Assembly: GCF_000373965.1 (NCBI RefSeq)
Contig: NZ_KB892846.1
Location: 248,001-312,000 of the forward strand
Source of the DNA: Uliginosibacterium gangwonense DSM 18521
GTDB lineage: Bacteria > Pseudomonadota > Gammaproteobacteria > Burkholderiales > Rhodocyclaceae
Direction: 5' to 3'
DNA length: 64,000 bases
The position numbers were made by a program, and so were the translations under genes. Below, piece after piece: positions 9,950 to 20,093 of this stretch. The notes beneath the pieces were generated by a model. It saw nothing but the letters and a program-made list of their open reading frames with translations. It searched no databases and was not told the origin of the DNA. Each line of letters begins with the position of its first letter. Positions within the stretch are counted from its first letter, which is position 1.

Positions 9950-10817
9950 GGAAGTTGCCATCTCCCACCCCTCCCCCTATCTTGTGCTGAAGTTTGCCAG
10001 TGCAATGTTCAAAGCAGTCCCCGCCGCGCTGGATGCCATGCAGATGCAGCAGGTGTTAGCGGCGGCGGCCCGCGCGGAGGAACTGGAACGGCGCATTCTC
10101 TCCAGCCGGGAAGCAGCGGGCGTGGTGGTCGGAGAAGAAGCCTTGCAGCGCGGGCTGGCAGAGATCCGCACGCGCTTTGCCAGCGAAGAGGATTTCGCCG
10201 AAGAACTTGCCCGGCATAGCATGGATCAGCCACGGCTATGCGAAGAAATCGCCCGCAATCTGCGGGTGGATACCGTGCTGGAGCGCATTTCCACCAAGGT
10301 GGCATCCATCAGTAATGCCGAGGTGGAGATCTTCTACCTCATCCACCATGAGCGCTTCCAGTTGCCGGAGCGGCGCACCATGCGCCACATCCTGATCACC
10401 GTCAATGAGGACATCCCGGAAAATACCGCCGCACAAGCCTACGCCAAACTTGCGGACATTCTCGGCCAATGCCAAAGTCATCCCGAGCGTTTTGCCGAAC
10501 TGGCGTTACGCCATTCGGAATGCCCCACCGCCATGCAAGGCGGCCTGCTCGGCCAGGTACAGCGGAATCAGCTCTACCCTGCACTGGATACGGCAGCTTT
10601 TGCCATGCGGCCAGGGGAGCTGTCTGCCATTCTGGAATCCCCCTTGGGGCTGCATATTCTGCGCTGCGACAACATCTCCCCTGCCGGATGCGTTCCATTG
10701 AACCAAGTGCGTGAGCGCATCCGCGAACAATTGCTCTCCGTGCGCCGCCAAAACAAGCAACGTGCCTGGATCAAATCGCTCCCCGCGCGCAAACACACGG
10801 TTGCCGAAGCGGCATAG
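9942..10817 (+). CDS. nifM: Nitrogenase Fe-protein maturation PPIase NifM
   Basis: A 291-residue protein with an N-terminal helical SurA-like region and a C-terminal parvulin domain: RRTMRHILITVN, FAELALRHSECPTAMQGGLLGQV, then GELSAILESPLGLHILRCD. NifM is needed for folding or activity of the Fe protein NifH. It ends the nifVWZM run. After the stop there is only about 190 nt to pgsA, holding two small hairpins (near 10857-10870 and 10870-10892) without U-runs. No other nif genes lie in the window. Confidence 0.93.
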   Translation: MPEEVAISHPSPYLVLKFASAMFKAVPAALDAMQMQQVLAAAARAEELERRILSSREAAGVVVGEEALQRGLAEIRTRFASEEDFAEELARHSMDQPRLCEEIARNLRVDTVLERISTKVASISNAEVEIFYLIHHERFQLPERRTMRHILITVNEDIPENTAAQAYAKLADILGQCQSHPERFAELALRHSECPTAMQGGLLGQVQRNQLYPALDTAAFAMRPGELSAILESPLGLHILRCDNISPAGCVPLNQVRERIREQLLSVRRQNKQRAWIKSLPARKHTVAEAA

Positions 10818-11006
10818 CCCTATTCAACCAGTGTTTTCAAGGCAGCTTCCATTGACGCATACATGCGTGGGATGAAGCGCGCCCATCCCATCAAGGTCAA
10901 TGACCTCCCGCCAGCGTAGCGTTGCTTATCCGATATTTCAAACGATTAAATCCGCGTTGCAGCAAGACAGCCCCAATCGCGTCAGCGTGCAGAAAACAAG
11001 GCGGCC

Positions 11007-11573
11007 TTACTTGATGCGCATCTCGGCAAAGGCCCGGCGCATGTAGTAGATCATCGACCAGACGGTGAGGATCGCAGCCACGATCAGCAGCCAATTGCCG
11101 ATAAACTTGATCGGCAGGCCGTAAAGGTCGTCGTAAAACAGCAGCATGGGGATCGCCACCATCTGCGCCGTGGTCTTGAGTTTGCCGATGAAAGACACTG
11201 CCACGCTCTTGGCCGCACCGATATGGGCCATCCATTCGCGCAGAGCGGAGATGGTCAGTTCCCGCCCGACGATCACAAATGCCAGCACGGCGTTGCAGCG
11301 ATCCAGCCCCACCAGCAGGACCAGCGAGGCACAGACCATGAGCTTGTCGGCCACCGGATCAAGGAAGGCGCCAAACGCCGAGGTCAGCCCCAGGCGCCGG
11401 GCCAGATAGCCATCGAACCAGTCGGTAATAGCGGCCACGCAAAACAGCACGCAAGCCAACATGTTCTGATGATGCAGCGACAGCACATCAAGTGGCAGAT
11501 AAAAGACGGCCAACACAAGCGGAATCATCAGGATTCGCGCCCAGGTCAGTGCGTTGGGAAGATTGAATTCCAT
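11007..11573 (-). CDS. pgsA: CDP-diacylglycerol--glycerol-3-phosphate 3-phosphatidyltransferase
   Basis: A 188-residue inner-membrane enzyme making phosphatidylglycerol phosphate. The CDP-alcohol phosphotransferase motif D-G-x2-A-R-x8-G-x3-D-x3-D is seen as DGYLARRLGLTSAFGAFLD followed by PVAD (about residues 53-75). The opening NLPNALTWARILMIPLVL helix is typical. The gene follows uvrC by 17 nt on the same strand, the conserved uvrC-pgsA pairing of many proteobacteria. Confidence 0.95.
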   Translation of the reverse strand: MEFNLPNALTWARILMIPLVLAVFYLPLDVLSLHHQNMLACVLFCVAAITDWFDGYLARRLGLTSAFGAFLDPVADKLMVCASLVLLVGLDRCNAVLAFVIVGRELTISALREWMAHIGAAKSVAVSFIGKLKTTAQMVAIPMLLFYDDLYGLPIKFIGNWLLIVAAILTVWSMIYYMRRAFAEMRIK

Positions 11574-11590
11574 GAGAGGCTTTATTCGCG

Positions 11591-13402
11591 TTACCGCAGT
11601 GCGTTGTAAATCTGTTCCGCCATTTTACGATTGATCCCGTCTACGCGGCACAGGTCCTCAATTGTAGCCTCTCGCACCCCTGCCAAGCCACCAAAAGCTT
11701 CAATCAGTTTCTTGCGCCGTGTCGGCCCCACGCCCGGTATGTCTTCCAGCTTGGAGGTCAGCCGCGTTTTGGATCGTCGGGCACGCATGCTGGTAATGGC
11801 AAAACGGTGCGCCTCATCGCGCACAATCTGGATCAGATGCAATGCAGGGTGATCGCCCCCGAGCGCCAGCGGCGCACGCCCATCGGTAAAGATCAGTTGT
11901 TCCAGCCCGGCCTTGCGTTCCTCGCCCTTGGCTACCCCCACCATTGCAATGCTTTGCAGGCCCAGCTCGCACAGCACATCCAAGGCCACGCCGATCTGCC
12001 CCTTGCCCCCGTCGATAAGGATCAGATCCGGGCGCACGCTCTCCCCTGCGGCCACCTTCTCGTACCGACGGGTCAATGCCTGACGCATGGCGGCGTAATC
12101 ATCCCCCGGCTCAATGCCACTGATGTTGAAACGCCGGTACTCGGACTTCTTCATGCCCTCGCCTTCCCACACCACGCAGGAGGCCACCGTGGCCTCGCCC
12201 TGAGTGTGGCTGATGTCAAAGCATTCGATGCGGTGCGGGTGTTCAGACATCCCCAGTGCGGTCTGCAAGGCATCAAGCTGGACTTCGGCCCGGCCCGTTT
12301 CGCGCAAGCGCGTCTCCACGGCCAGATTAGCGTTCATCAGAGCCATTTCCACCCAGGCCTTTTCGGCCTGGAAACGCGCAGCGGCAACGATGGGCGGGCG
12401 CTCCAACACATCTTCCAGCACCAAACGGATGGCCTCAGGGTCGGCCCCTTCGACCAGCACCTTGGCGGGAGCCGGGTGCAGGCGATAGTGTTGCTCGGCA
12501 AAGGCCAGCAGGGCATCGGCCACGCCGAGGCCCTCACCGCCTTGTGGGAACTGTGCACGGTCTCCCAGGTGACGGCCGCCACGCACCATGGCCAGATTCA
12601 CACACACCACGCCGCCTGCAGCCTGAGCCACCAGGATGTCAACATCCTCATCCTTGCCCGAATCCACAAACTGCTTGTGCAACACAGTCTGCAAGGCGCG
12701 GATTTGGTCACGGAAAATGGCGGCCTCTTCAAACGCGAAACGCTCGGAAGCCTCTTGCATGCGGGCCGTGAGGCTATCAATGACATCTGAATGACGCCCT
12801 TCCAAAAACAGGGTGGCGAGCTTCACATCGCGCGCGTAACTTTCTGCATCAATCACCCCCACACAAGGGGCCGAGCAACGCTTGATCTGGTGCAGCAGAC
12901 AGGGGCGTGAGCGGTTGTTGAACACACTGTTCTCACAGGTACGCAGCAAAAACAGGCGCTGCAGAAGCTGGACGCTCTCTCGCGCAGCCCAGCCCGAGGG
13001 ATACGGCCCAAAGTAGCGCACGCCCTTCTCAAACGCCCCACGGTAATAAGCCAGCCGTGGCGAAGCATCGCCACTGATGGCGATATAGGGGTAGCTCTTG
13101 TCATCGCGGAAAAGGATGTTGTAGCGCGGCTTGAGCGTCTTGATCAGCGTATTTTCAAGGATCAGCGCCTCGGCCTCCGAGCGCACCGCCGTGATATCCA
13201 CCCGCGCGATCTGCGCAACCATCATGGCGATGCGCGGGCTGGGGTGGTTCTTCTGGAAGTAGCTCGACACCCGCCGCTTAAGGTTCTTGGCCTTGCCAAC
13301 GTAGAGCACCTCCTCGCCCGCACCGATCATGCGGTAGACGCCCGGCGCCTCGGTCAGCGAACGCAGAAAGGGTTTGTAATCGAAACTCACGGCCAGCCAC
13401 AC
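11591..13402 (-). CDS. uvrC: Excinuclease ABC subunit C
   Basis: A 603-residue nucleotide excision repair nuclease making both incisions with UvrB. Order: GIY-YIG domain (GVYRMIGAGEEVLYVGKAKNLKRR), Cys-rich segment (CENSVFNNRSRPCLLHQIKRCSAPC), UvrB-binding helices (about residues 200-240), RNase H-like endonuclease (ECFDISHTQGE, LILIDGGKGQ), and a C-terminal helix-hairpin-helix pair (DIPGVGPTRRKKLIEAFGG). The start is GTG; a second GTG four codons later (VSFDYK) is equally possible. Upstream of pgsA in one operon. Confidence 0.96.
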   Translation of the reverse strand: MWLAVSFDYKPFLRSLTEAPGVYRMIGAGEEVLYVGKAKNLKRRVSSYFQKNHPSPRIAMMVAQIARVDITAVRSEAEALILENTLIKTLKPRYNILFRDDKSYPYIAISGDASPRLAYYRGAFEKGVRYFGPYPSGWAARESVQLLQRLFLLRTCENSVFNNRSRPCLLHQIKRCSAPCVGVIDAESYARDVKLATLFLEGRHSDVIDSLTARMQEASERFAFEEAAIFRDQIRALQTVLHKQFVDSGKDEDVDILVAQAAGGVVCVNLAMVRGGRHLGDRAQFPQGGEGLGVADALLAFAEQHYRLHPAPAKVLVEGADPEAIRLVLEDVLERPPIVAAARFQAEKAWVEMALMNANLAVETRLRETGRAEVQLDALQTALGMSEHPHRIECFDISHTQGEATVASCVVWEGEGMKKSEYRRFNISGIEPGDDYAAMRQALTRRYEKVAAGESVRPDLILIDGGKGQIGVALDVLCELGLQSIAMVGVAKGEERKAGLEQLIFTDGRAPLALGGDHPALHLIQIVRDEAHRFAITSMRARRSKTRLTSKLEDIPGVGPTRRKKLIEAFGGLAGVREATIEDLCRVDGINRKMAEQIYNALR

Positions 13403-13566
13403 CCATCAAAATTCCCAAGTGGGCAAAGATACCACCTCTGCCCCACCAAACTGCAAGCATCTGTGCAAGAAGGCAAGGAGTGCTTGCGCCAGATACCGTT
13501 ATCGACGACATTCATGGCTGCGCAGCATTCGTTTTCCCTCAATACCATCACAGGCCCTACCGGACT

Positions 13567-14169
13567 ATGGACGCAGGCAGCCCGCAGGACATTTTCCACG
13601 ACCCCGCTTATCTGAATGATCTGCGCAGGCAAATGGTGAAATTCGCTACGCTGCAATTAAGTGATGCAGCGTGGGCCGAAGATGCCGTGCAAGATGCGCT
13701 GACCGGGGCTTTAAAAAACGCCCATGCATTTGCCGGGCGCGCCGCGTTCAAAACCTGGGTTTTCGGAATCCTGAAAAACAAGATCGCCGACACACTGAGA
13801 GCCCACCTGCGCGTCCCGCAGGTAGAGCACATCGAACACGCCGAAGATGAGGCTTCCGACCTAGAGGAACTCTTTGATGAGCGTGGGCACTGGTTGAGCG
13901 ACGAAAAGCCGGAGAAATGGGGGCAACCGGAGGCCTGCTTACGTGAAAAGCATTTCTGGCGGGTGTTTGACGCCTGCCTGGAAAACCTGCCGACCCGACA
14001 GGCCCGCATCTTCATGATGCGTGAATTCGTGGAAATGGAAAGCAATGAGATCTGCGCTTCAACGGGCCTGTCCGTTAGCAACCTGAACGTCACGCTTTAC
14101 CGGGCACGTCTGCGTTTGCGCGAATGCCTGGAAAATCGCTGGTTCGTCGCCGGAGAAGCAATACAATGA
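13567..14169 (+). CDS. ECF-type RNA polymerase sigma factor
   Basis: A 200-residue sigma-70 family factor with region 2 (DAAWAEDAVQDALTGALKN, then FKTWVFGILKNKIAD at about residues 35-75) and region 4 (LPTRQARIFMMREFVEME...STGLSVSNLNVTLYRARLRL). A charged linker of about 50 residues joins them. The ATG at 13567 is chosen over an upstream reading that starts with non-conserved sequence. It overlaps the zinc-finger anti-sigma gene by ATGA, and faces the bufABC-doxX operon. Such factors control MNIO/bufferin operons in other bacteria; here that is inference. Confidence 0.85.
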   Translation: MDAGSPQDIFHDPAYLNDLRRQMVKFATLQLSDAAWAEDAVQDALTGALKNAHAFAGRAAFKTWVFGILKNKIADTLRAHLRVPQVEHIEHAEDEASDLEELFDERGHWLSDEKPEKWGQPEACLREKHFWRVFDACLENLPTRQARIFMMREFVEMESNEICASTGLSVSNLNVTLYRARLRLRECLENRWFVAGEAIQ

Positions 14170-14369
14170 ACTGCCGAGAAGCCACTCGCCTGATGTCAGA
14201 AGCCATGGACCGCAAACTCAGCGCTCCAGAGCGGCTGAGCTTGCGCCTGCATACCGCCATCTGCTCAGGCTGCCGCAACTTTCGCGGCCACATGAGTGCA
14301 ATGCGGCAAATCACCCAAGCCTATGTACGCCGCACGGATGACGAGAGCCCCCCTCACGACTCCGCCTGA
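14166..14369 (+). CDS. Zinc-finger (zf-HC2) anti-sigma factor, short soluble form
   Basis: A 67-residue protein. It begins MNCREATRLMSEAMD and carries LHTAICSGC, the H-x3-C-x2-C element of zf-HC2 anti-sigma factors, with the N-terminal Cys as a fourth ligand. There is no membrane helix, so it would be a cytoplasmic sensor. It is coupled to the sigma gene (ATGA overlap), and its last 16 nt overlap the 3' end of the convergent doxX gene. Zinc or another thiol-reactive metal could be the signal. Confidence 0.8.
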   Translation: MNCREATRLMSEAMDRKLSAPERLSLRLHTAICSGCRNFRGHMSAMRQITQAYVRRTDDESPPHDSA

Positions 14370-14857
14370 AACCGCGTACTGATCCAATGATCCAGCGAAA
14401 ACCACCCCGCCCCGTTTGCCGCCAGATAAAGCAATACCGTGGCCCAAGTGCCATGTACAGGATAGGCATCCGGATAAACAAATATTTCAATCACGGCCGT
14501 CATCCCCAGCAGCCCCAATGCAGCAAAGCGCGTTCCCAACCCAAGCAGCAACAAGACAGGAAACACGTGTTCTGCCGTAGCAGCCAGCATGGCGGCTAAT
14601 TCTGGTGGCAAAACAGGCAGGCGGTATTCATCACGGAACAAAAACACGGCAGAGGGGTTCAAATGGGGCCAATCTGGTTGGAATACTCCGTCGATCAGAT
14701 CAATCGCAAAGCCCGTCACCTTGGTCTGGCCGGATTTCCAAAATACCGCCGCCATCGAGAAGCGTGCCAGCATGGCAATTAAGCTGTGCGGGATTCGAGT
14801 CAAATATCCCCGGATCAAGCCCAAACCTTTTTGTGCAGATGCCACCAGTGTACTCAT
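14354..14857 (-). CDS. DoxX family membrane protein of the buf operon
   Basis: A 167-residue protein with four predicted transmembrane helices. Family features include ARFSMAAVFWKSGQTKVTGF in helix 1 and HVFPVLLLLGLGTRFAALGLLGMT in the middle. DoxX proteins are found as the last gene of bufferin/gig-type operons, where their role is unclear. It starts within the stop of bufC (ATGA), so it is part of the same transcript. Confidence 0.85.
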   Translation of the reverse strand: MSTLVASAQKGLGLIRGYLTRIPHSLIAMLARFSMAAVFWKSGQTKVTGFAIDLIDGVFQPDWPHLNPSAVFLFRDEYRLPVLPPELAAMLAATAEHVFPVLLLLGLGTRFAALGLLGMTAVIEIFVYPDAYPVHGTWATVLLYLAANGAGWFSLDHWISTRFQAES

Positions 14858-15630
14858 TGCCCAAGCCCCTCCTGCTCAACACCTGTGATCAAACGATAGC
14901 GAAGCAAGGCCCCAAGACATCGGCCAAGATCGAACGCCTCATCCGCTGCGAAAGCCTGCTCTGCGGCCCCGGCCAGACTCGCCCCGGCCTGAAGTGCACG
15001 TAAGAAGACAACATCTGCCTCACCCACACGCAGTACCATCGTCTGCAAGCCCTCACGCAATATCCACGCACTCTCCGGCGGGTGCAGACCGGACAAACTG
15101 AGCATCTCGCCGCGCTGATGTGCCCCCCAAAGGGAAACGATGGCATAGGTCGAGGACACAGCTTCCAGAGCAGGCTGAAACTTCAGGCGCACGCGGCCCA
15201 ATGCATCGGGCTCCGCAATATATGCATATAGCATTTCCAACTCAATCGGCTGGCCGCTTGCTGCATGAAAACAACACACATACGCCCATTCCAGCATGGC
15301 CAGATCAGGCAGACAGGGATGGATTTCTGCAGCACCGCAGGCCGCCAGATAGGCGGAAAAGCCTTGCCCATACCGTGCGAGTACGGCGTCTACAGGCGGA
15401 TGAGTGCGGACAAAATCGATTGCAATCGACCTAAAAATAGCCTCCCCCATACAAGCACGCACCACAGGAAAAGTTTCCGCCAGCGCATCACTCAAGGAGG
15501 CAATGACATTATTCCGGTATACCGCAAACCGCTGTTGCGGGTCTGAGCCATTCCAGGTACGCAGCCCTTGCACAGGCAGTTTCGGGTCATGCAAGGCTTG
15601 CGCCCAATGCGCGCACATGCTCGGATTCAT
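14854..15630 (-). CDS. bufC: DUF2063 MNIO-partner protein (BufC-like)
   Basis: A 258-residue protein. Its N-terminal DUF2063 domain shows [20 protein letters not shown] followed by [13 protein letters not shown], conserved in the HvfC/BufC family. The C-terminal half is the winged part that helps deliver the precursor peptide to the MNIO enzyme. It overlaps bufB upstream and doxX downstream by four bases each. A partner role in the Cys-modifying complex is assigned from family knowledge; the substrate would be the BufA-like peptide. Confidence 0.87.
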
Positions 15631-16511
15631 GCGGCCTCCTTGGCAAGTGCCAGATGCAACGCAGCATCAATGCGCCGCGCTTCGGCGCGCAGGGTATTCC
15701 AATCTGGCAGGTGATGATCCCACTCAAGAAGAGTTGGCATCGGCCCAATCTTTGCCAGAACCTCCCGATACAAACACCAGACTTCACTGTCAACATGCGC
15801 ACCATGACTATCAATCAGCAGCGGAGCGCCTGAAGAGTCGGTTTCACGGTGGAATCCGGCAAGATGAATTTCCCCAACCTGCTCCAGGGGCAAACCTTGC
15901 AGATAGGCATGGCAATCACGACCATGATTGACGCATGAAACATAGAGGTTGTTCACGTCCAGCAGCAAGCCGCAACCACTGCGCCGTACCACTTCCCGGA
16001 TGAAATCCTGTTCGGCATAGGTGGAGGCTTCAAATTCAACATAGGTGGCCGGATTTTCCAGCAAGATGCGTCGCCCAAGCTGATTCTGCAGCACGTCCAG
16101 ATGCTCACACACACGTCTGAGCGTGTCATCGTGATACGGCACCGGGAGCAAGTCATTGAAGAACACGCCACCATGCGACGCCCACGCAAGATGCTCTGAG
16201 AATACGTCAGGCTGATAGCGGTCGATCAATTGGCGCAATTGTCGCAAGTGCGTTTGATCCAGCGGAGCCTCGCCTGCCAGCGAGAGACCCACACCATGAA
16301 TCGATAAGGGATAGCGCTCACGGATACGCGTCAGATATTCATGAAAAGGGCCACCGTCAACAAAGTAGTTTTCGGCATGGATCTCGAAAAAGCCTACATC
16401 CTGAGGCTCTTCGAGAATCTCACGATAATGCTCTGGCTTCAGCCCAAGCCCTGCACGGGCAGGCAAGGCGCAGAGCGGAGGTGTGGCATGACTCATTGGG
16501 TCGCCCCGCAT
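15627..16511 (-). CDS. bufB: DUF692 multinuclear non-haem iron oxidase (MNIO, BufB-like)
   Basis: A 294-residue TIM-barrel protein of the DUF692 family. Candidate iron ligands are visible in [58 protein letters not shown] and LLEWD. MNIO enzymes oxidatively modify Cys in RiPP precursors; the closest context type is bufferin maturation. Two starts are possible (16511 or 16496); the conserved part begins at [14 protein letters not shown]. It lies 89 nt after bufA with an intervening hairpin and overlaps bufC by ATGA. Confidence 0.9.
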
Positions 16512-16547
16512 TCAAATCGTCAGGTGGGTAAGTTGCACAGGGAAAAG

Positions 16548-16586
16548 GGCTTCCCCCGCTGTCGTGCCAAACCAACAGGGGAAGCC
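16548..16586 (-). terminator. Intercistronic hairpin between bufA and bufB
   Basis: GGCTTCCCC (16548-16556) pairs perfectly with GGGGAAGCC (16578-16586), about 15 nt after the bufA stop in the transcript. No U-run follows, so it is more likely an mRNA stabiliser or attenuator that would keep precursor mRNA more abundant than enzyme mRNA. Confidence 0.5.
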
Positions 16587-16600
16587 GCCTCAAAGCCTGA

Positions 16601-16903
16601 TCAGGACTTCTTTTCCATAAAGGACATCAACTGACCATACCCGGTTGGAGAAGTGGGCGAAGCCATTTTTTCACAGCTACCCTTGGGCACGGATTTCCAT
16701 GCATTCCCCTGATAATCCATCTTTGCCGTCCCAGCGCAGGTGGTGCCCGCCCCCGCCTTGCAATCGTTATGCCCCTTGAGCGCCACGCCATAGCACTTTT
16801 CCATGTTCATCTCTTCCGCGTGCGCAGACATTGCCGACAAGGTCAGTGCAGAAGTCAGTGCCAGAGCCAGGGTTGCACCGCTGAGGTTTACTTTGGTCGT
16901 CAT
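16601..16903 (-). CDS. bufA: Bufferin-type RiPP precursor (DUF2282, BufA-like)
   Basis: A 100-residue protein with a Sec signal peptide (hydrophobic [18 protein letters not shown], cleavage at AHA-EE) and a core with four Cys: [41 protein letters not shown]. This spacing is the DUF2282/bufferin signature; such peptides have Cys converted by an MNIO and bind copper in the periplasm. The ATG at 16903 has GGAAGGAAC upstream. It is the first gene of bufA-bufB-bufC-doxX. Confidence 0.88.
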
Positions 16904-16948
16904 GTTGAGGTTCCTTCCATTATTAAAAGTGATGCCAGATGGCAATAC

Positions 16949-16981
16949 AGAACGCTTTCGCCCGATTGCAAAAAGCGTTCT
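16949..16981 (-). promoter_or_regulatory. Perfect 10-bp inverted repeat in the bufA leader
   Basis: AGAACGCTTT (16949-16958) and AAAGCGTTCT (16972-16981) are exact reverse complements around a 13-nt loop, 46 nt upstream of the bufA ATG. If transcription starts near 16985 this is a leader hairpin; otherwise it may be an operator. Confidence 0.5.
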
Positions 16982-16991
16982 TACTTCCTTG

Positions 16992-17026
16992 GTCGGTGCT
17001 CAACACACATTTCTTACACTGTTTCC
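16992..17026 (-). promoter_or_regulatory. Candidate ECF-type promoter of bufA
   Basis: On the minus strand GTAAGA (17017-17012), 16 nt, CGAC (16995-16992) resembles GTAACC-N16-CGAA, the motif reported for SigF promoters in Caulobacter. An alternative reading is GGAAAC (17026-17021), 16 nt, GTTGAG. No second copy was found before the sigma gene, so neither reading is confirmed. Confidence 0.3.
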
Positions 17027-17130
17027 AAAAAAATTTTGGGCCCACCCGCAAACCCTTGTTTCGCTTGGCAAACATGGGCCTGACTCGCTATGCTTGCCGC
17101 CTTGTTCCCATCCCCTGATCGCCCCGGATC

Positions 17131-17691
17131 ATGCATATCCGCTACAACGCCCCCGTCAGCCTGAGTTTCTCGCTCGCCTGTGTGATCATCTTCATCCTCG
17201 GGATCCTCATCCCACCGCTACGGGAACTGTTCGTCGTCCCCGGTGGTGCAGCGTTTTCCATCGCCCGCCCGCTCGACTGGTTCCGGCTGGTCAGCTACGT
17301 GGCAGGCCACGCGAGTTGGGACCACCTCCTGGGCAACCTCTCCTTCATCCTCCTGCTTGGGCCGGTATTGGAGGAAAAACACGGCAGCCAACGCTTGTTC
17401 GCCATGATGTTCATCACCGCGCTCGTCACGGGGCTGGTCAATGTGCTGTTCTTCTCCACCGGGCTTCTCGGCGCCAGCGGCATCGTCTTCATGTTCATCC
17501 TGCTGGTGAGCATCACCAACATCAAAAGCGGCGAAATCCCGCTGAGTTTTATTCTCGTCGTTACCATCTACCTGCTGCGCGAGGTTGTGATGGGGTTTCA
17601 TGACGATCAGGTCGCCCGCTTCGCCCACCTGATTGGCGGCGCCTGTGGTGGCATGTTCGGGTTTGCGCTGGCGAACAGGGGGAGGTCGTGA
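17131..17691 (+). CDS. Rhomboid-like intramembrane protease
   Basis: A 186-residue polytopic protein with about six hydrophobic segments. The rhomboid core is present: HASWDHLLGNLSF (conserved H and N in helix 2), GASGIVFMFIL with the candidate catalytic Ser in the GxSG motif, and AHLIGGACGGMFGF with the catalytic His. Substrate unknown. It is followed at once by an ankyrin-repeat gene whose GTG overlaps the stop. It is divergent from bufA across 227 nt. Confidence 0.83.
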   Translation: MHIRYNAPVSLSFSLACVIIFILGILIPPLRELFVVPGGAAFSIARPLDWFRLVSYVAGHASWDHLLGNLSFILLLGPVLEEKHGSQRLFAMMFITALVTGLVNVLFFSTGLLGASGIVFMFILLVSITNIKSGEIPLSFILVVTIYLLREVVMGFHDDQVARFAHLIGGACGGMFGFALANRGRS

Positions 17692-18098
17692 AGAACACGA
17701 TCCCCTCCGGGCAAACCACAAGCATGAGCAAGCTGGAGCAGGTATTCAGCCGGATCGAATCTGTTCCAGACTTCTCCGGCCACCAGATCACATCTGTCGC
17801 CTACCGCAACGGATGGGGAGACAGCCCTTTGCACATCGTCAGCGTCTGGGGCGACTGTGAGGCCATCAAGATACTGCTGGATGCAGGAGCAGACATTAAC
17901 GCACAGGGCGAATCCGGTTTTACGCCCCTGCATTACGCTGCAGAACAAAATCACCCCGCAGCGGTGGAACTGCTATTGACCATGGGCGCGAAGCCCCTGA
18001 GAAATGACGACAACGATACCCCACTGGCTCTGGCGGAGAAACTTGGGCACACAAACATCCTCACCATCTTGAAACAATATCTCAGGCAAGCAGAATAA
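17688..18098 (+). CDS. Ankyrin-repeat protein
   Basis: A 136-residue protein with roughly three ankyrin repeats: GDSPLHIVSVWGDCEAIKILLDAGADINAQ, GFTPLHYAAEQNHPAAVELLLTMGAKPL, and DTPLALAEKLGHTNILTILKQYL. No signal peptide or membrane segment, so probably cytoplasmic. The GTG at 17688 overlaps the rhomboid stop, with AGGGGGAGG just upstream; an ATG at 17724 (MSKLEQVF) is an alternative. Coupling to the rhomboid suggests a shared task but no function can be assigned. Confidence 0.8.
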   Translation: MKNTIPSGQTTSMSKLEQVFSRIESVPDFSGHQITSVAYRNGWGDSPLHIVSVWGDCEAIKILLDAGADINAQGESGFTPLHYAAEQNHPAAVELLLTMGAKPLRNDDNDTPLALAEKLGHTNILTILKQYLRQAE

Positions 18099-18170
18099 TT
18101 CGCTCCTGATACCGGCCATACATCCAGAACCACAAGGTTTTGTTGATCAGCAAAATACCCCTTTGGCATT

Positions 18171-18893
18171 TCACTTTTTGGGTTGATACAGCGTTCGTGC
18201 CAGCACAAGGTTGCTGACTCTGGCTGCGCCGCTCATCTTGAGGGTGCGGGCGAGTTCGTTGAGGGTGGCGCCGCTGGTCATCACATCGTCGATCACCAGC
18301 ACATGCAGGCCCGTTACTGGCTGGCGACAGCGAAAGGCGCCACGCACAGCGCGCAGGCGTTCTTTTTGGCGCAGCCCTTCCAGGCGCGGGGTGTCGGTAT
18401 CGCGCACCACCAGATCGAGCGCCAGTTTTGTTGGACTGGGCAGATGGCGACGCAGGGCGCGGGCGAGTTCTGCAGCCTGATTGAAGCCCCGTTCGGCCAG
18501 CCTTGAGGCATGCAGGGGCATGGGGATGATGAGGTCCGGCGCCGCAAACGCGCTGCAGCGTTCTGCCAGCCTGTGCGCCAGCCAGTCGAGCTGGGCAAAG
18601 CCGGTACCGTGTTTGAGGGCTAGCACCATCTCCCGCATGGGGGTGGCGTAGGCAAACAGTGCCTGCGAAGCTTCAAAGTGCGGGGTGCGCTTCAGGCAGC
18701 GCCCACACAGCAAGCCCTGTGGAGAGGGCAAGGCGCAGCAGGGGCAGGATGCGCGGGCATCAAGCCAGGGCAACAGAGGAGTACAATGCGCGCAAACAGC
18801 CTCGGCCCCAGCGTTTTCATCGCAGACGAAACAGTCTCGCGGCCAACTTGCAGCCCAAAACCGAGTTACCCACGCTGAAAGTGTGTTTGACAA
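18171..18893 (-). CDS. comF: ComF family phosphoribosyltransferase-like protein
   Basis: A 240-residue protein with an N-terminal zinc-ribbon-like Cys array ([25 protein letters not shown]) and a C-terminal PRTase domain with [19 protein letters not shown] as the PRPP-binding loop. ComF is needed for late steps of DNA uptake in competent bacteria; exact chemistry is unknown. No ATG lies near the conserved start: the reading extends upstream across bioB, so a TTG at 18893 with GGAAAGG 8 nt before is chosen. Confidence 0.85.
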
Positions 18894-18957
18894 GCTTTTG
18901 GCCTTTCCCGGATCATTATCCGTTTCTGGATTCACCGCCTCAGAAGGATTTCTTTTT

Positions 18958-19953
18958 ATGAGCACCTGCTCCACTGTCGAACAACCCGTCGCCTTCCACC
19001 GTCCCGCCGCCGTGCCTGCGGATGCAGAATGGACGACTGACTCCGTGGCAGCGCTCTTCGAGTTGCCGTTCAACGATCTGATTTTCCGTGCCCAACAAGT
19101 GCACCGCGCCCATTTTGACCCGAATGCGGTGCAATGTTCCACCCTGTTATCCATCAAGACCGGTGGCTGCTCAGAAGACTGCAGCTACTGCTCGCAATCC
19201 AAGCGCTACAAGACCGGCCTGGAATCCGAGCCGCTGATGAGCCTGGACGAAGTGCTGAAGATGGCCGAAGCCGCCAAGACCAAGGGCGCTACCCGCTTCT
19301 GCATGGGTGCCGCGTGGCGCAGCCCCAAGGAAAAAGACCTGGAGCCGGTGCTGGAGATGGTGCGTGAGGTCAAAAAGCTCGGTATCGAAACCTGTGTCAC
19401 GCTGGGCATGCTCAAGGAAGGTCAGGCTGAACGCCTGAAGGAAGCCGGGCTGGACTACTACAACCACAACCTGGATACCGCACGCGAGTTCTACAGCGAA
19501 GTCATCACCACCCACACGATTGACGACCGCCTGGCCACCATCGACAAGGTACGCGGCGCAGGCATCAAGGTTTGCGCCGGTGGCATCGTCGGTATGGGCG
19601 AGAATCGCCGGGCGCGGGCCGTGCTGATCGCCCAGCTTGCCAACCTGAACCCGCCGCCCGAATCCGTGCCCATCAACAGCCTCGTGCGCATTGAAGGCAC
19701 GCCGCTGGATAAGGTTGCAGCCCTCGACCCGCTGGAATTCGTACGCACCATCGCCGTGGCCCGCATCACCATGCCCGAGAGCTATGTGCGTTTGTCCGCC
19801 GGGCGCCAGCAGATGGGTGAAGCCATTCAGGCGCTGTGCTATCTGGCAGGGGCCAACTCGATCTTCACGGGCGACCGCCTGCTCACCACCGACAACACCT
19901 CGGAAGGTGAAGACGCAGCGCTGTTTGCCAAGCTGGGGATCAAGGCGGTTTGA
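18958..19953 (+). CDS. bioB: Biotin synthase
   Basis: A 331-residue radical-SAM enzyme that inserts sulfur into dethiobiotin. The 4Fe-4S cluster motif C-x3-C-x2-C is [13 protein letters not shown] (about residues 64-76). The second-cluster region includes [16 protein letters not shown] and the conserved Arg-containing VRIEGTPL. The ATG at 18958 has AGAAGGA upstream; longer in-frame readings start inside comF. Divergent from comF across a 64-bp region that must hold both promoters. Confidence 0.97.
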
Positions 19954-19956
19954 CAT

Positions 19957-19988
19957 CGCATATCCATTCCCTCAGGAATGGATATGCG
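19957..19988 (+). terminator. Hairpin immediately after bioB
   Basis: CGCATATCCATTCC (19957-19970) pairs perfectly with GGAATGGATATGCG (19975-19988) around CTCA, starting 4 nt past the bioB stop. No U-run follows, so it may act as an mRNA-stability hairpin or partial terminator. Confidence 0.5.
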
Positions 19989-20093
19989 CATCCTTAACGG
20001 GGTGGCAAGGCGCCCGTCTTGTCCACAATGTCAAATTCATAGCGGGGTTTTGTTGAAAATGCAGCGCCCCGGCTGATCAATTGGGAATCCAGC

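Follow-up and report, generated by a model that had tools for sequence, protein, structure and literature searches.

A locus for a bufferin-type, ribosomally synthesized and post-translationally modified peptide was analysed in a 64,000-nucleotide stretch (the window) of Uliginosibacterium gangwonense DSM 18521 (contig NZ_KB892846.1, positions 248,001 to 312,000). Four minus-strand genes, bufA, bufB, bufC and doxX, face two plus-strand genes encoding an extracytoplasmic function (ECF) sigma factor and a zinc-binding anti-sigma (ZAS) protein, and a predicted ECF promoter lies before bufA. The bufB product belongs to the multinuclear non-heme iron-dependent oxidative enzymes (MNIO). The features are as follows.

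13567..14169, plus strand: ECF sigma factor, 200 aa (Pfam Sigma70_r2 and r4_2, each about 6e-12; NCBIfam NF009196, 312.7 bits, cut-off 287; TIGR02943, 245.6 bits, cut-off 162.2)
14166..14369, plus strand: soluble ZAS anti-sigma, 67 aa (zf-HC2, 8e-9; NF052368 antisigmaE, 75 bits, cut-off 50)
14354..14857, minus strand: doxX, 167 aa (Pfam DoxX, 6.8e-15)
14854..15630, minus strand: bufC, DUF2063 partner (PME type 1), 258 aa (PF09836, 78 bits, cut-off 27.2, 6.8e-22)
15627..16511, minus strand: bufB, MNIO maturase (DUF692), 294 aa (MbnB_TglH_ChrH, 8.5e-106; NCBIfam NF050167 MNIO_BufB, 384 bits, cut-off 310)
16601..16903, minus strand: bufA, Buf1-type precursor with four Cys, 100 aa (DUF2282, 88.5 bits, cut-off 22.4, 2.9e-25)
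16990..17017, minus strand: predicted ECF promoter of bufABC-doxX, GTAAGAA-N15-CGACCA, 87-114 nt before bufA

Gene products of the buf locus

All six genes were matched by Pfam models, and their assignments are far beyond chance. The coordinates and the Pfam matches agree with the initial annotation, which had placed bufA, bufB, bufC and doxX on the minus strand opposite a sigma factor and a 67-residue zinc-finger anti-sigma. The 4-nt overlaps that it gave for bufB/bufC and bufC/doxX were confirmed from the gene coordinates, and the 3' ends of the anti-sigma and doxX genes overlap by 16 nt as claimed (14354-14369). The sigma and anti-sigma genes also share an ATGA overlap (14166-14169); bufA and bufB do not overlap and are separated by 89 nt. 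An alternative start of bufB is possible at 16496. Three further NCBIfam models remained under their cut-offs: HvfX for doxX (45.6 bits, cut-off 80), HvfC for bufC (39.5 bits, cut-off 142), and BufA2 for bufA (27.1 bits, cut-off 60). No Rfam match at the gathering threshold was found within 10000-20000.

Three features of bufferin 1 (Buf1) membership are present, namely a DUF2282 precursor with four Cys, a BufB-family MNIO, and a DUF2063 partner. The Cys residues of BufA show the bufferin spacing proposed earlier; their positions are equal in nine close relatives and in 25 distinct BufA cores, the search pattern behind these cores itself demanding four Cys. The N-terminus of BufA is signal-like (sequence judged by eye). 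Both DUF2282 and BufB have a single match in the 5.0 Mb genome. An alignment of nine BufB sequences contains the invariant residues H72, H107, E152, D185, H216, D234, H236 and E263, all eight of which have like counterparts in the solved MNIO structure 3BWW (5.4e-44). Such His, Asp and Glu residues are presumably those that bind iron in MNIOs. BufC shares 35-42% identity with eight relatives. In sequence searches of the PDB, BufC, compared as a check for a RiPP recognition element domain in its C-terminal half, had no significant match, and 3DEE, a DUF2063 structure, was likewise missed; no significant relative was found for BufA or the anti-sigma. The MNIO class of BufB is associated with 5-thiooxazoles and copper binding (PMC13097082), and the bufferin product class binds copper (PMC12452194, PMC13097082). 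The likely product of the cluster, with high probability, is a bufferin, a small peptide that binds copper.

The anti-sigma fits the ZAS motif C-X23-26-H-X3-C-X2-C. In an alignment of the window protein with 24 others, chosen from 50 loci with a match, the residues C3, H29, C33 and C36 are invariant (25/25), and NF052368 matches every sequence. No long hydrophobic stretch was seen by eye in its 67 aa, which fits the membrane-free ZAS type. The counterparts of these residues in neisserial MseR are Cys4-His30-Cys34-Cys37, where Cys to Ala changes, and not the His to Ala change, were reported to relieve repression (PMC2893595). HrsE of Haemophilus influenzae also has 67 aa; it is cytoplasmic, co-purifies with its own sigma factor and blocks it (PMC7907618). 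With MseR and HrsE as precedents, control of an MNIO cluster by a ZAS anti-sigma that lacks a membrane span is already known.

The predicted bufA promoter and locus order in relatives

The window and the neisserial sigma-E consensus (GTMAGBWTT, 12-13 nt, CGTCTAAH; PMC2893595) served to define a loose promoter pattern. Nine close bufA genes each have one match to it in the 331 nt upstream, and the bufA of the window is likewise preceded by one. The nine sites are tighter than the loose pattern, with GTAAGA(A/G), then CGAC(C/T/A)A, and two spacings; the conserved form is GTAAG-N16/17-CGACNA. The GTAAG and CG(A/T)C blocks before the MNIO operon stand in the same register as the neisserial consensus. 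A matrix built from the nine relatives, with the window excluded, scores the window site at 24.6; 1000 mononucleotide shuffles of the 228 nt upstream of bufA never reached this value, and elsewhere in the 64 kb, both strands counted, the best score is 12.5.

A sigma-based scan gave 52 loci, in which the six window proteins were placed by tblastn. The convergent order of the window is complete in seven of them (L003, L006, L008, L010, L012, L014 and L016), which belong to a Rhodoferax metagenome-assembled genome (MAG), two Aromatoleum, Glaciimonas, a Pseudomonadales MAG, a Burkholderiales MAG, and Thermomonas. The order is cut by a contig end in two further loci (L002 and L032), the arrangement is divergent in two (L019 and L020), and it is codirectional with a diverged BufA in L009 and L013, the latter without a bufC match. 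The strict promoter form is absent from L009 and L013; each has a single GTAAGAA-CGACGA site, with the near-last position relaxed, which lies between doxX and bufA in the orientation of bufA. Together with the nine close loci, such a promoter therefore precedes bufA in 11/11 fetched sigma-linked bufA loci. In the seven convergent relatives the anti-sigma and doxX genes are separated by gaps (16-113 nt in five, 1.8-2.8 kb in two), and the 16-nt overlap of the window was therefore rejected as a regulatory device.

A family survey covered 249 genomes, sampled evenly out of a larger group. The family appears to be Rhodocyclaceae, because genomes G194 and G201 carry the very sites seen in Aromatoleum diolicum (L006) and Denitromonas (L041), and Aromatoleum belongs to Rhodocyclaceae. 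BufB exceeded its cut-off in 83 genomes, the sigma factor in 120, and both in 59. The sigma factor is present in 59/83 BufB genomes vs 61/166 others (p 5e-7, relatedness uncorrected). The pattern GTAAGAAN14-15CGACYA occurs at 54 sites in 39/249 genomes, and the sigma factor is present in 30 of these 39 vs 90/210 others (p 1e-4, again uncorrected). Twelve of the 54 sites, the window included, lie at most 1.1 kb upstream of a same-strand MNIO gene (10 BufB over the cut-off, 2 below); by a hand estimate, random placement would yield about 0.005. Two others of the 54 lie upstream of a sigma gene of the same family.

The conserved promoter is strong indirect evidence that bufA transcription would depend on the sigma factor. 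These results point to an inducible bufferin operon under its own sigma/anti-sigma switch, to which we assign a probability of roughly 0.85. It is very unlikely that the pair is a mere neighbour, with the buf operon under another regulator and the pair controlling other genes. Such an arrangement would suit the loose linkage, since sigma and BufB genes lie within 6 kb of each other in only 22 of the 59 family genomes having both (24 pairs; 17 codirectional, 4 convergent and 3 divergent), and in 41/52 sigma loci, L002 and L032 included, bufA and bufB were not found together within the DNA covered, some of these loci being cut by contig ends. Against it stand the like site before bufA in 11/11 such loci, and the sites directly before sigma genes of the same family in eight strict loci (L020, L021, L024, L034, L035, L038, L041 and L048), as expected of autoregulation there, and in L118 and L135. 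Moreover, the four other GTAAGN16-17CGACYA sites of the window genome all lie inside long open frames (by eye), and further regulon members in this genome are thus unsupported.

Several observations weigh against a sigma-switched operon. The loose pattern is weak alone, with 47 matches on both strands of the whole window. The site before the sigma gene of the window is poor:

13465..13492, plus strand: weak promoter-like site before the sigma gene, GCAAGAA-N15-CGCCAG, score 9.3

Six of 1000 shuffles were as good, the site ranks sixth in the window, and strict sites directly precede the sigma gene in only the eight loci named above out of 52. Within the family, a reversed control pattern is commoner than the pattern itself, so that placement, not site number, is the evidence. 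Forty of the 54 family sites adjoin no MNIO or sigma gene entered in the comparison; several are intragenic by eye (for example in a DNA polymerase III-like frame; L115, L137 and L138) and look like chance. The G194 site is not independent, because it coincides with the site of L006, one of the loci behind the matrix. The window genome has one PMSR match and one SelR match, and no strong site was found upstream of its msrA or msrB, an MsrP-like gene not being searched for; the best matrix scores nearby are 6.9 and 13.1 (about 3.4 kb each), the latter inside the msrB frame. In addition, the available text on a comparable system, the gig operon of Cupriavidus metallidurans, does not demonstrate control by its sigma factor RpoQ (PMC10304878, PMC11022561), and meningococcal RNA-seq was reported to reveal additional sigma-E-dependent genes without the promoter consensus (PMC3240639).

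The context of 32 sites was examined in loci L115-L144 of the relatives. Sites precede a PMSR-thioredoxin-SelR gene (L120), a SelR gene (L121), and a gene for an Oxidored_molyb protein (L139); these methionine sulfoxide reductase (Msr) and molybdopterin oxidoreductase contexts recall the Neisseria, Haemophilus and Caulobacter regulons. Small Cys proteins of EGKCG-like and KCGAKCG-like kind follow the sites in L119 and L143 (by eye). The protein of L143 (2635-3027), a small secreted-looking AKCG-repeat protein downstream of the same promoter pattern, is cut by the locus end. Separately, two Aromatoleum loci whose sigma is a more remote one of the same kind have sites of the GTAAGG type upstream of proteins with numerous NPCAAK repeats (L037, 3186-3943 and 11842 on; L043, 3134 on). 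One of these proteins has a cytochrome c-like domain, and they are possibly Cys-rich precursors of another kind.

Origin of the cluster and adjoining features

The genes uvrC and pgsA, which adjoin the cluster, are conserved together in 7/7 other genomes of the genus, and the similarity to these relatives ends at or near the uvrC start (1.5 kb beyond this start compared). No BufB match was found in the 7/7 other genus genomes. A sigma factor over the family cut-off occurs in one of the seven, as a partial match (L055, G004:C103), with an anti-sigma-like match beside it on the opposite strand. The G+C content at third codon positions is 0.56-0.58 in bufB, bufC and doxX, 0.64-0.71 in bufA, the sigma and the anti-sigma genes, and 0.73-0.82 in four neighbours. 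The missing BufB in the genus and the lower values in part of the cluster suggest that the cluster was probably acquired by horizontal transfer. A rhomboid gene and then an ankyrin-repeat gene (17131-18098, plus strand) adjoin the bufA promoter; the rhomboid has a match (62% identity) in only 1/7 other genus genomes.

A hairpin lies between bufA and bufB:

16548..16586, minus strand: 14-bp hairpin, then CTTTTCCC

Its folding z is -2.4, and 3/200 shuffles were equally good. The same shape was absent in the nine relatives folded, and the hairpin is thus unsupported as a conserved element. The bufA-bufB regions of L016 and L019 out-fold nearly all of their own shuffles, but in different shapes. 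The hairpin might be an attenuator lowering bufBC relative to bufA, or a 3' stabiliser of the bufA message.

Proposed mechanism and comparison with known systems

By analogy with MseR and HrsE, the 67-aa ZAS protein would keep the sigma factor inactive in the cytoplasm at rest, and zinc loss from its Cys/His site, or oxidation of that site, under stress would release the sigma; candidate signals are copper, reactive chlorine and disulfide stress. From the conserved and correctly placed promoter, sigma-RNA polymerase may read GTAAGAA-N15-CGACCA and transcribe bufA-bufB-bufC-doxX. The sigma factor of the window itself seems to be made mainly from a different promoter. BufB and BufC would then turn the two central Cys of BufA into 5-thiooxazoles, the outer two forming a disulfide, as published Buf1 work suggests. 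Sec export would put the copper-buffering peptide in the periplasm, and DoxX may assist. In relatives the wider role might be copper and oxidant defence coupled to methionine sulfoxide repair.

Sensing of metal or thiol stress by the anti-sigma, as the initial annotation had supposed, is plausible. Oxidative or chlorine stress has nearly an even chance of being the primary signal, acting through a disulfide switch of RsrA/HrsE type, with copper secondary. The same promoter before the Msr genes of relatives speaks for this, as does the H. influenzae RpoE2, whose expression rises with HOCl and H2O2 (PMC7907618); whereas peroxide, diamide and singlet oxygen were reported to elicit no response from the meningococcal sigma-E (PMC2893595), and gig responds to copper and gold (PMC10304878). 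Somewhat less probably, a thiophilic metal (Cu, Au, Ag, Zn or Cd) displaces the anti-sigma zinc as the primary signal. The copper binding of the product class is consistent with a metal signal, and in Caulobacter, Cr and Cd elicit a response from SigF (PMC3511200); however, SigF and RpoQ use membrane anti-sigmas (NrsF, and RsqA as predicted), so the signal may enter elsewhere, and the redox sensor RsrA has the same ZAS residues.

The sharing of the promoter with the Msr genes of relatives hints at a common stress behind copper buffering and methionine repair. With somewhat less than an even chance, soluble ZAS ECF pairs are a general cytosolic bufferin switch in Betaproteobacteria, unlike the membrane type of NrsF and RsqA; one intracellular thiol/zinc signal would then call up both a periplasmic copper-binding peptide and periplasmic methionine sulfoxide repair, and the cluster would move between species as a self-regulated cassette.

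The closest known systems differ from the window in several ways. The Neisseria cluster NMB2140-2145/NGO1948-1943 (sigma-E, MseR and the gonophorin cluster) likewise combines MNIO, DUF2063 and DoxX genes with those for an ECF sigma and a ZAS protein that is small and soluble, and its promoter blocks and spacing resemble those of the window (PMC2893595). Besides the MNIO cluster, the neisserial pair also controls methionine sulfoxide reductase. It forms one autoregulated polycistronic operon; whereas the window has two convergent units and no clear autoregulation. As we interpret the discussion in PMC13097082, the neisserial precursor seems to belong to the EGKCG type; whereas that of the window is DUF2282. 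RpoE2/HrsE of H. influenzae shares the 67-aa cytoplasmic ZAS anti-sigma, and its sigma controls a DoxX/MNIO (hvf, oxazolin) cluster and msrAB (PMC7907618). The Haemophilus sigma gene sits with msrAB, apparently away from that cluster, whereas the window sigma adjoins its cluster. The Caulobacter operon CC3254-3257, which we take to be the bufferin 1 operon, has the order DUF2282-DUF692-DUF2063-DoxX under the ECF sigma SigF; its anti-sigma NrsF is a six-span membrane protein (DUF1109), and SigF also runs a second operon (PMC3511200). In C. metallidurans, gigPABT-rpoQ-rsqA also sets a four-gene operon beside an ECF sigma pair, but in divergent order and with RsqA predicted to be membrane-bound. 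Gold-related clusters of the gig-like kind have been treated as bufferin clusters (PMC12452194), the naming of gig being our interpretation.

The Buf1 cluster survey tallies sigma factors and NrsF anti-sigmas, and its main text contains neither zf-HC2 nor zinc (PMC12452194). No soluble ZAS anti-sigma beside a DUF2282 cluster was found in literature titles and abstract openings; this coverage is incomplete, and the combination is not claimed as unreported. Operons of this kind are known to be under sigma control in Caulobacter; for Cupriavidus gig the question was left open, and the sharp conserved promoter makes it directly testable in a new lineage. The sigma-switched bufferin cluster is a known kind, and its arrangement is known from other bacteria; new here are the recurring convergent order and the clear conserved promoter tying the sigma factor to the buf genes.

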